A DNA stretch of 64,000 nucleotides from Inquilinus sp. Marseille-Q2685 (lineage in GTDB: Bacteria; Pseudomonadota; Alphaproteobacteria; DSM-16000; Inquilinaceae). The position numbers were made by a program, and so were the translations under genes. Positions 38,419 to 53,148 of this stretch are shown piece after piece (the stretch's first letter is position 1; every line of letters starts with the position of its first letter). Location of the stretch: NCBI RefSeq assembly GCF_916619195.1, contig NZ_CAKAKL010000001.1, positions 434,001 through 498,000 of the forward strand, in the 5' to 3' direction. Under the pieces are notes generated by a model. The model saw only the letters and a list, made by a program, of their open reading frames with translations, ran no database searches and had not been told where the DNA came from.

Positions 38419-39927
38419 TCATGCGCCGGAGTCGCCTACCGATCCGCCCTTCAGCACCGCGGCGACCTCGGGATGGCCGAAATGCTCGGCCCAGCCCAGC
38501 GGGGTGCTGTCGTAGGTCCGGTCGCGCAGGGCCGGGTCCGCCCCGTGCCGCAGCAGCAGGCGGGCGCCGCGCGAATCGTTGGCCCAGCCGGCCGCCATGT
38601 GCAGCGGGGTGACGTCGGCCGTATCGCCCCAGACGACCCGGCGGTTGACGTCCGCGCCCTGCCCGATCAGCCAGTCCGCCGCCTCCGCCCGATGGCTCAG
38701 CAGCGCCCAGTGGAGCGCGGCGCCGTTGTGGGGCGCGCCGTCGATGTCGGCACCGCGGGCCAGCAGGGCGGCCATCGCCTCGATCCGGCCGCTGCGCGCG
38801 GCCCAGGTCAGCGCCTCGTCCAGGATCTCCTGCGGCGAATCGGTCATGTGCCATTCCGGGAAGCCGCTGTGAGGGCGGTAGAAGCCGCGGTGATGCCCCG
38901 CCTCCGGCCGCAGGGTCCCGTCGGCCTCGAAGAAGAGGCCGATCAGGTCCATCCGCCCGAGGCCGGCGGCGATGCGCAGGTTGAGCGGCGCCACCACCTC
39001 CGCCGCCAGCCTTTCGGCCACCGTGCCGTGGCCCCAGAACAGCGCGACTGCCAGCGGCGTGCCGCCGTCGCCATAGGCCTCGGCCTCGACCGGGCTGCCC
39101 GCTGCGATCAGCCGGTCGAGCAGGGCCAGGCGCGCCTCCCGGTCGCCGCGGCCGCCGCCATAGGCGATGTCGTGCAGCGGGCCCCAGCCCTTGTCATTGG
39201 TGAGCGACGGGTCGGCGCCGGCGTCGAGCAGGTCGCCGGCCAGCACCAGGCGGTTCATCGAGATCGCCAGCATCAGCAGGCGGTTGCCGTTGGTCCCCTT
39301 GGCGTTGACCAGGCCGGGATGCGACGACAGCACCGCGGCCAGGGCGCCGCGGTCGTCGCCGCGGATCGCCTCGAAGGCGGTCCGGAACGGCTCCTCCACC
39401 CGGCCGGCCTGCATCGCCTCGATCCGCTCGGCGAAACCGGTCCAGTCGTCGAAGCCGTGGCTGCGGGCCACGATCAGCTCGGCGTCGGCCTGGCTCAATT
39501 CGGCGGCGCGGATCTCGGCCTCCGACGCCGCGGCGAATCGCGGATGGAAGCGCTGCGCCAGGCGCAGCGACCCGGCCTCGCCGGTGCGGTGATTGCTGCG
39601 AATGCCGGCGGCGCGGTCGCGATAGTATTGCAGCTCGGTCTCGAAGGGCCGGGCGATCTCCGGCAGCTCCCCGGCCAGATGGGCCTGCAGCTTTGGCCAA
39701 CTGGCGAAGCCGTATTCGCGGGCGATCACCCATTGCGCGTCGCTCAGCTTCGCCGCGGCGGCAAGCTCGGCATCGGCACGATGAGCCAGTCGCGGATGGC
39801 TGTAGCGGAACCGGGCGATCGCCTCGGCCTCGCCGGCGCGCAGCGCCTTCAGCAGGTCCTTGGCGCGCTTCTTCTGCTGCTCCGGATCGGGCGATGCGGG
39901 CAGGTCGCGGGCATAGGGATGAGGCAT
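38419..39927 (-). CDS. ankyrin-repeat protein
   Basis: 502-residue soluble protein with ankyrin repeats from about residue 165 to the end. Typical units are NGNRLLMLAISMNRLVLAGD with LLDAGADPSL, KGWGPLHDIAYGGG, MAALLARGADIDGAPHNGAA with LHWALLSHRAEAADWLIGQG, and DVTPLHMAAGWAND. The first ~160 residues form two helical SDAQWVIAREYGFASWPKL-like units (again ADAELIVARSHGFDDWTGF), a short repeated module found before ankyrins in related proteins. Probably a protein-protein interaction scaffold; partner unknown. No signal peptide. Confidence 0.9.
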   Translation of the reverse strand: MPHPYARDLPASPDPEQQKKRAKDLLKALRAGEAEAIARFRYSHPRLAHRADAELAAAAKLSDAQWVIAREYGFASWPKLQAHLAGELPEIARPFETELQYYRDRAAGIRSNHRTGEAGSLRLAQRFHPRFAAASEAEIRAAELSQADAELIVARSHGFDDWTGFAERIEAMQAGRVEEPFRTAFEAIRGDDRGALAAVLSSHPGLVNAKGTNGNRLLMLAISMNRLVLAGDLLDAGADPSLTNDKGWGPLHDIAYGGGRGDREARLALLDRLIAAGSPVEAEAYGDGGTPLAVALFWGHGTVAERLAAEVVAPLNLRIAAGLGRMDLIGLFFEADGTLRPEAGHHRGFYRPHSGFPEWHMTDSPQEILDEALTWAARSGRIEAMAALLARGADIDGAPHNGAALHWALLSHRAEAADWLIGQGADVNRRVVWGDTADVTPLHMAAGWANDSRGARLLLRHGADPALRDRTYDSTPLGWAEHFGHPEVAAVLKGGSVGDSGA

Positions 39928-50703: not shown

Positions 50704-51642
50704 ATGTCGCGACACCATGTGCCCGCGTCGGCCGAGACCTGTGCCTGGGGCTATTTCGACGCGACGCGAGAGCCGGTGCTGACGGTCGACAGCGGCGACA
50801 CGGTCGTGATCGACACCGTGACCGGAGGGCCGGAGGTGCTGCCCAATGGCGATTTCCATATCCCGCCCGAGCTCCACGAGATCCACCAGCGCTGCGACCG
50901 TTCGACGCCGGGCCACATCCTGACCGGCCCGGTCGCGGTCCGCGGCGCCAAGCCTGGCCGGGTGCTGGAGGTGCGGATCCTCGACGTCTCGCTGCGCCAG
51001 GACTGGGGCTACAACGTAATCCGGCCGCTGGCCGGCACCCTGCCCTATGACTTCGAGGATTCGCGCCTCCTCAACATCCCGCTCGACGCCGGGCGCGGCA
51101 CCGCGCGCCTGCCCTGGGGGCTGGACCTGCCGCTCCGGCCCTTCTTCGGCGTCATGGGCGTGGCACCGCCGAAGGGCTGGGGCCGGATCAGCTCGATCCA
51201 GCCGCGCGCCCATGCCGGCAACATCGACAACAAGGAGCTGGTGGCCGGCACCACCCTCTACCTGCCAGTGTTCACCGACGGCGCCCTGTTCTCCTGCGGC
51301 GACGGCCACGGCGCCCAGGGCGACGGCGAGGTCTGCGTCACCGCGATCGAGACGGCGCTGCAGGGCACCTTCCAGCTGATCGTCCGCGACGATCTCGGCT
51401 TCACCTATCCCCGCGCCGAGACGCCGACCCACCACATCACCATGGGGATGGACCCCGACCTCGACCGCTGCGCCGAGATGGCGCTGCGCGACATGATCCG
51501 GCTGCTCGGCGAGACCGCCGGCCTGTCGCGCGAGGACGCCTACACCCTGTGCAGCCTAGCCGGCGACCTGCGGATCACCCAGACGGTGAACGGCTGCAAG
51601 GGCGTGCACATGATGATGGCGAAGGAGCTGCTGGGCCGATGA
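50704..51642 (+). CDS. acetamidase/formamidase family protein
   Basis: 312 residues of the FmdA/AmdA family, which hydrolyses formamide, acetamide or related small amides to the acid and ammonia. Segments: HHVPASAETCAWGYFDATRE, HILTGPVAVRGAKPGRVLEV, FFGVMGVAP, GNIDNKELVAGTTLYLPV and GALFSCGDGHGAQGDGEV. It is the last gene of the gntR-PLP enzyme-ABC importer unit, so an imported amide (or an amide made by the PLP enzyme) is the likely substrate (inference). Cytoplasmic; no signal peptide. Confidence 0.9.
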   Translation: MSRHHVPASAETCAWGYFDATREPVLTVDSGDTVVIDTVTGGPEVLPNGDFHIPPELHEIHQRCDRSTPGHILTGPVAVRGAKPGRVLEVRILDVSLRQDWGYNVIRPLAGTLPYDFEDSRLLNIPLDAGRGTARLPWGLDLPLRPFFGVMGVAPPKGWGRISSIQPRAHAGNIDNKELVAGTTLYLPVFTDGALFSCGDGHGAQGDGEVCVTAIETALQGTFQLIVRDDLGFTYPRAETPTHHITMGMDPDLDRCAEMALRDMIRLLGETAGLSREDAYTLCSLAGDLRITQTVNGCKGVHMMMAKELLGR

Positions 51643-51650
51643 CGGAAAGG

Positions 51651-51673
51651 CCCGAGCTCAGCTGAGCCCGGGA
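51651..51673. repeat. palindrome left of the signal-peptidase-like gene
   Basis: 23 bp starting CCCGAGCTCAGCTGAGCCCG, matching 52416-52438 at 21 of 23 positions. Each copy forms a 9-bp hairpin (this one with a single mismatch). Found 8 bp after the amidase stop, it may terminate that operon. Confidence 0.75.
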
Positions 51674-51741
51674 GGCGAGATGACATCAAATCAGCTCTCC
51701 GCCATCATCTGTGATTGAGATCGCTATTGGGACCGGAGGCC

Positions 51742-52430
51742 ATGGTCGGACGCCGTGCGGCACTGCTTCTCCTTGGCTCCGCGGGCCTGTCGCTATCCGC
51801 ACGCTCCAGCCAATCGGCCCCGCCTCAAGCCAAACTTGATAGCGCAGCCATCATCGCGCGCTTCTCTCAGGCCGGAATTCCGATCGACATCTTGCGTGTC
51901 GCCAGCGGAGCGATGATCCGGAACTGGAAGTCGACGATGCCGTCCTTGCCGACCTGCGGACGGCCGGACAGTTGCCGAAGCGGGGCGAGGTCGTCGTCTT
52001 CAGGCGACCGGATGGCGATGGCAAGGCGATGTTTCGCGTGATTGGCCTGCCGGGAGACAAGATCGCCGTGAATTCGGGACAGCTGACCCTGAACGGCATC
52101 AGAGTTGCCCGGGCTCCTCAAGGGACGATCAGAAGGCAAGTTCCCGAGCGATGGGAAACTTTGAGCGTATACTCCGAGACGCTCCCGGAGGGCCTATCTT
52201 ATGAAGTCGCGGAATCCCCTACACCCGGCCGTTTCGACGAGATTCCGGAGACGGCAGTTGCAGCAGGAGCCATATATGTCTTGGGAGACAATCGCGACTA
52301 TGCCGACGACAGCCGCTCTGCGCAGTTGGGGGATATCCCGCTCGATCACATCGTCGGCCGCGTCGTGTTCCGGCTGCGGCCCGATCCCAGCTGGCTGGTG
52401 CCGCCGGAGACGGTTCCCGGGCTCGGCTGA
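51742..52430 (+). pseudogene. degenerate signal peptidase I (S26)-like gene, frameshifted and missing catalytic residues
   Basis: The N-terminal part has a signal-peptide-like start (MVGRRAALLLLGSAGLSLSA) and continues to VASGAM. There the frame breaks near 51917; one extra C in the ATCCGG run would restore IPELEVDDAVLADL, leading into LPKRGEVVVFRRPDGDG, RVIGLPGDKIAVNSG and the box E motif GDNRDYADDSR. Even with the frame repaired, the nucleophile position of the SGSM motif is Ala (SGAM), and the general-base Lys before R-x-x-G-x-P-G-D is Phe (MFRVIGLPGD). So it is probably inactive. Codon use looks less G+C-biased than in neighbours. Either a decayed foreign gene or a non-catalytic homologue with a sequencing error. 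Confidence 0.75.
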
Positions 52431-52438
52431 GCCCGGGA
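52416..52438. terminator. perfect hairpin overlapping the end of the signal-peptidase-like gene
   Basis: CCCGGGCTC-GGCT-GAGCCCGGG, a perfect 9-bp stem with a 4-nt loop, one base more at the 3' end in common with the copy at 51651. It contains the stop codon (52428-52430) and lies between convergent genes, so it could stop transcription from both sides. No T run follows, so it is not a classical intrinsic terminator. Confidence 0.5.
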
Positions 52439-52447
52439 ACGCGATCA

Positions 52448-53116
52448 TCAGTCGCGCGGCTGAGCAACGGTGCGGAGATAGGGCTTGAGGGTCTTGAAGC
52501 CGGCCGGGAACTTCTGTTTCGCCTCCTCGTCCGAGACCGAGGTGACGATGATGACGTCCTCGCCGTTCTTCCAGTCGGCCGGCGTCGCCACCTTGTGCTT
52601 GGCGGTCAGCTGCAGCGAGTCGATCACCCGCAGGATCTCGTCGAAGTTGCGCCCGGTGGTCATCGGGTAGGAGATCACCAGCTTGATCTTCTTGTCCGGC
52701 CCGATGACGTAGACGTTGCGCACGGTCTGGTTGTTGACCGCGGTGCGGCCTTCCGAGGTGGTGCCGGCATCGGCCGGCAGCATGCCGTAGAGCTTGGAGA
52801 CGACGAGCTCGGAATCGCCGATCACCGGGAAGTTCGGGGCGACACCTTGCGTCTCCTTGATGTCCTGGGCCCAGCTCTCATGCCGGTCGACCGGGTCGGC
52901 GCTGAGGCCGATCACCTTGACGTTGCGCTTGTCGAATTCGGGCTTCAGCTTGGCCACGGCGCCGAGCTCGGTGGTGCACACCGGGGTGAAGTCCTTGGGA
53001 TGCGAGAAGAGCACGCCCCAGGACGAGCCGAGCCAGTCGTGGAAGCGGATCCGCCCCTCGGTGGTCTCGACTTCGAAATCGGGCGCGTCCTCACCAATCG
53101 CGAGCGGACCGGCCAT
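52448..53116 (-). CDS. peroxiredoxin, 1-Cys (Prx6/AhpC-TSA) type
   Basis: 222-residue thiol peroxidase reducing peroxides. The peroxidatic cysteine is in SHPKDFTPVCTTELGAVAKL. The long C-terminal domain (GRNFDEILRVIDSLQLTAKH, TPADWKNGEDVIIV) is typical of 1-Cys Prx6-type enzymes; no resolving cysteine is seen. The start is the ATG at 53116 with GGAGG 6 nt upstream. It converges on the signal-peptidase-like pseudogene. Confidence 0.95.
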   Translation of the reverse strand: MAGPLAIGEDAPDFEVETTEGRIRFHDWLGSSWGVLFSHPKDFTPVCTTELGAVAKLKPEFDKRNVKVIGLSADPVDRHESWAQDIKETQGVAPNFPVIGDSELVVSKLYGMLPADAGTTSEGRTAVNNQTVRNVYVIGPDKKIKLVISYPMTTGRNFDEILRVIDSLQLTAKHKVATPADWKNGEDVIIVTSVSDEEAKQKFPAGFKTLKPYLRTVAQPRD

Positions 53117-53148
53117 TTTTACCTCCAATTAGCGTTAATTGCGGAATT

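Follow-up and report, generated by a model that had tools for sequence, protein, structure and literature searches.

We analyzed a window of 64,000 nucleotides (the whole stretch of DNA under study) from Inquilinus sp. Marseille-Q2685 and centered on a signal peptidase I (S26) homologue on the forward strand at 51742-52430 whose frame is interrupted near 51916 by a shift of one base (Table 1). The amidase/formamidase-like gene located just 5' of the S26 gene closes a sugar-type ABC transporter operon; on the other side lies the peroxiredoxin gene, which faces the S26 gene. The neighbours are metabolic and transport genes, and no pilus or sortase-type partner was found beside the S26 gene. Elsewhere in the window, ARAGORN reported a tRNA-Arg (tcg) at 39311-39405 on the reverse strand, which at 95 bases is unusually long for a tRNA-Arg.

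Table 1. Coordinates, in window positions, of the features at the S26 locus.
Feature	Position	Strand	Description	Basis
Acetamidase/formamidase-like gene	50704..51642	+	Upstream syntenic anchor; 92-95% identical in congeners
S26 3'-end stub	51651..51688	+	Just after amidase stop; resembles 3' end and following hairpin of the S26 gene of the locus
17-base direct repeat CTCRGCTGAGCCCGGGA, upstream copy	51657..51673	+	Core of the stub; brackets the S26 gene
S26 gene, 5' part	51742..51915	+	Twin-arginine-like signal sequence, then the beginning of the S26 domain; ends SGAM (Ala at nucleophile site)	Translation, homology to congener proteins
Frame break	51916..51917	+	One base out of register; congener copies open at the same site
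S26 gene, 3' part (next frame)	51918..52430	+	MFRVIGLPGD (Phe at general-base site), GDNRDYADDSR; ends VPGLG, stop
17-base direct repeat, downstream copy	52422..52438	+	Overlaps stop codon and hairpin CCCGGGCTC..GAGCCCGGG
Peroxiredoxin gene	52448..53128	-	Downstream syntenic anchor; 94-96% identical in congeners

The first frame, from the ATG at 51742, begins MVGRRAALLLLGSAGL, with the short signal-like start MVGRRAALLLLGSAGLSLSA, and continues to ILRVASGAM, beyond which the homologous register is lost. The register resumes in the next frame from 51918 with PELEVDDAVLADLRTAGQLPKRGEVVVF, followed by MFRVIGLPGDKI and VLGDNRDYADDSR, and ends in VPGLG with a stop at 52430. Translation thus placed the break at 51916-51918 and confirmed the one-base frameshift that the first-pass annotation had put near 51917. 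Profile searches with the read-through protein, carrying X at the broken codon, matched Pfam PF10502 (Peptidase_S26) with 82.7 bits (E = 3.9e-23; cut-off 22.9) and the signal peptidase I model TIGR02227 of NCBIfam with 84.8 bits against 47 (E = 6e-24), bearing out the earlier recognition of an S26 homologue with readable boxes that include GDNRDYADDSR. Judged from its sequence, the gene is by descent a member of the peptidase S26/signal peptidase I family. The two parts, if translated separately, would each miss half of the S26 fold.

Both catalytic residues are replaced, as had been proposed from the SGAM and MFRVIGLPGD motifs. In an alignment to the solved signal peptidase 4me8, the nucleophile Ser lines up with the Ala of SGAM and the general-base Lys with the Phe of MFRVIG, and alignment with the congener genes gave GCG (Ala) in place of TCG or AGC (Ser) at the first site and TTT (Phe) in place of AAG or AAA (Lys) at the second. 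Since no Lys codon can be reached from TTT by fewer than two base changes, the loss of the Lys is not a single base-call error. We considered a substitute active-site Lys, by comparison with a nearby Lys in SipA of Streptococcus pyogenes, and rejected it; the nearest Lys lies 3 residues before the Phe, and a role as the base was considered improbable for the nearby Lys of SipA (PMC4049620). The gene lacks three features of an active enzyme, namely the Ser of the SxSM box, the Lys before RVIGLPGD and an unbroken frame through the domain.

Against the congener majority, the gene has one frame break, no in-frame stops and no further indels over ~228 codons. This lone one-base break, with nothing else disrupted, is what a sequencing error would leave, in which case a full-length non-peptidase protein would be made today. 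We regard that reading as highly unlikely: the assembly is of good quality, with 18 contigs, a completeness of 100 and a contamination of 2.77, no more than two identical bases follow each other at the break site, and further conserved columns are eroded. A programmed -1 frameshift was also rejected, as inspection by eye found no slippery heptamer at the break and the congeners carry no shift.

The S26 gene is found between the amidase and peroxiredoxin genes in all five of the same-genus genomes examined (G001-G005). Four of these (G001, G002, G003 and G005) keep both the Ser and the Lys in a single copy each, while G004 holds two S26 copies that flank the amidase gene (L039, 6934-7455 and 8687-9208). 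The upstream copy of G004 has Ser and Lys; the downstream copy has Gly for Ser and keeps the Lys. All six congener copies have open frames, and none shares the Ala/Phe pair of the window gene. The expectation that Ala and Phe would be conserved among homologues thus failed when it was checked, and five of the six copies are canonical, close to the state in all homologues that had been named in advance as counting against a non-catalytic protein. A search of contigs for further relatives returned nothing beyond a single true relative, the G005 record, and a distant S26 gene. Beside the short S26 genes of another genus in the family, neither the same amidase gene nor the peroxiredoxin gene was found within the 1.5-kb flanks.

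The S26 proteins of the locus (congener copies in L036-L040 and the window gene at 51742) have, by eye, a twin-arginine-like signal sequence at the start that ends in an AxA-type site, for example MMRRREAMGLAGSALLALSAGRAAAA; profile searches gave no Tat profile match to these proteins. The S26 protein encoded in one record deposited as Mycobacterium sp. KBS0706 (NZ_VCCH02000009.1; L041) and that of G005 (G005:C439) are 100% identical. The Mycobacterium label looks wrong, or else the assembly is mixed (contamination about 10).

The divergence of the window gene is out of step with that of its surroundings. Most flanking proteins are 92-98% identical between the window and the congeners, with dS of 0.09-0.30 and dN of 0.01-0.05, whereas the S26 gene is 41-48% identical over its length to any congener copy, with dS of about 0.9-1.4 and dN of 0.50-0.61. 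Its GC3 is 0.70, compared to 0.92-0.95 for the neighbours and 0.76-0.90 for the congener copies. Of the 77 columns that do not vary among the other six copies, it has lost 17, the catalytic Lys and the MxPT-box Thr among them. A tree that includes other signal peptidases puts the gene inside the locus clade (support 100/100); its branch measures 1.4, compared to 0.09-0.19 for the nearest sisters, and its exact placement among the locus genes is unsure because this branch is so long. The operon position and the grouping with the congener copies are what would be expected of a vertically inherited orthologue that underwent nothing but neutral decay once the species had separated. We find this explanation unlikely, since a dN of about 0.5 exceeds the flank dS, and the divergence of the S26 gene is far above the flank level and more than decay since the species split allows, even though codon bias lowers flank dS.

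Neutral decay is also at odds with the pattern of substitution. A branch model rejected omega = 1 on the window-gene branch (lnL -4099.3, against -4064.3 with omega free), the estimate of omega itself being unreliable given saturated synonymous change and shifted composition. In the 3' part, conservation is 0.63-0.71 at codon position 2 and 0.40-0.46 at position 3. Together, the two results indicate that the gene was constrained during much of its divergence, and the rejection of omega = 1 over the whole branch means that decay fills at most part of it. With saturation and the shift in composition, these tests reveal past constraint rather than the date at which it ended or whether it outlived the catalytic residues. 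The stop-free 3' part was considered as proof of function and set aside as weak, as simulations of neutral decay of this part at 0.4-0.5 substitutions per site left it free of stops in about 2-20% of runs.

The first-pass annotation had offered a non-catalytic binding protein that later decayed. The decay fits our results; a conserved non-catalytic function is unsupported, given that no congener has Ala/Phe. We nevertheless weighed a non-catalytic protein of the S26 fold, of a peptide-binding or chaperone kind similar to SipA, that was once functional and was broken recently by a true frameshift. The non-neutral pattern over the whole branch and the few disruptions agree with such a protein, as do the retained GLPGD and GDNRD..DSR boxes, and S. 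pyogenes SipA sets the precedent of a catalytically dead yet required S26 protein (PMC4049620). However, the Ala/Phe state occurs in no congener, the constraint may equally predate the loss of Ser and Lys, the GC3 is eroded and the gene lacks a pilus or sortase-type neighbour, and we consider this explanation quite improbable.

The ends of the gene have a different history from its core. Along the window gene, the last ~80 bases are 80-100% identical to most congener copies, and most of the core is 40-65% identical. The stub behind the amidase gene aligned locally to the 3' end of the gene itself with a score of 42, where 500 shuffles reached 30 at most, and to G004a with a score of 42, compared to 35 in shuffles. 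The spacer between the amidase and S26 genes that holds the stub is absent in the congeners, where the S26 start lies at or overlaps the amidase stop codon. In the 7.29 Mb genome, the 17-base repeat has exact matches only at the two positions that bracket the S26 gene; a third match differs at one base and corresponds to the opposite arm of the downstream palindrome. The downstream copy of G004 likewise combines conserved ends with a divergent core, with the same mosaic at both ends. A common origin of the 5' end of the window gene and the G004 upstream copy was dropped, as the similarity was only borderline against shuffles. The mosaic ends and the genome-unique repeat suggest that this is a site of recombination at which a divergent copy took the place of an older one. 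Simple vertical decay accounts poorly for a near-identical 3' end joined to a diverged core, with the stub of an older copy upstream.

The genome has five S26-type matches. Apart from the window gene, two of them are complete signal peptidases whose Ser and Lys boxes are intact, so the cell is probably independent of the window copy for ordinary signal-peptide cleavage. We conclude with good confidence that the window gene, as a divergent copy of the genus-specific signal-peptidase-I-like gene found between the amidase and peroxiredoxin genes, is a pseudogene. The frame is broken and conserved residues are lost where the relatives are intact, as expected of a pseudogene, and ordinary gene decay is the most likely explanation, rather than a new kind of protein. 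The locus may exchange or duplicate its S26 gene through recombination at the conserved ends; in the window genome, the older copy would have been cut down to its 3' stub, with the divergent copy now behind it. The Ser and Lys would have been lost once the peptidase was no longer needed, and a late frameshift would have ended production of the full-length protein. The gene probably encoded an active peptidase during most of its history, after which the need, the active site and the frame were lost, in whichever order, with general signal-peptide cleavage presumably left to the remaining S26 genes. A more speculative proposal, to which we attach very little probability, is that divergent, twin-arginine-targeted, exported S26 copies repeatedly replace one another at this locus in the genus, with the Ser lost in different ways in two of the seven, and that the fold could have a second, non-proteolytic use that tolerates the loss of catalysis.

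In practical terms, the gene is unsuited to annotation as a signal peptidase or to proposal as a new binding protein; being a dead copy of an enzyme type already known, it matters little as it stands. The locus, with its similar flanks, divergent S26 gene, mosaic ends and changing copy number, could serve the study of how accessory signal peptidases are lost or replaced.

Compared to bacterial signal peptidase I (LepB; MEROPS S26A, PF10502, TIGR02227), the window gene shares the domain order and the SxxM..P, RGD/E-VVF, RVIGLPGD and GDNRD..DSR boxes, and the congener copies are also LepB-like in retaining Ser and Lys. It departs from LepB in its Ala for Ser, its Phe for Lys and its broken frame, and in having a twin-arginine-like signal sequence in place of the usual membrane anchor. 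Two S26 proteins with altered active sites are closer in that respect. S. pyogenes SipA has the S26 fold with Asp48 and Gly85 at the catalytic sites and is required for pilus assembly (PMC4049620); both catalytic positions are replaced, as in the window gene, but SipA has an intact frame and belongs to a pilus operon, whereas the window gene is broken and without such context. Staphylococcus aureus SpsA lacks two conserved catalytic residues and is dispensable in a genome that also encodes the active enzyme (PMC12445088). The window gene resembles it as an inactive-site paralogue with an active enzyme elsewhere in the genome, but SpsA is reported as an inactive homologue with no mention of a frameshift, and its host and context are unrelated. 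For a class of the SipA/SpsA type, the absence of the catalytic pair should be common to relatives, and it is shared by none of the six congener copies. We therefore assigned the window gene as an S26 pseudogene rather than to the SipA/SpsA type, because the loss is not shared by its relatives, its frame is broken and its operon holds no comparable partners.
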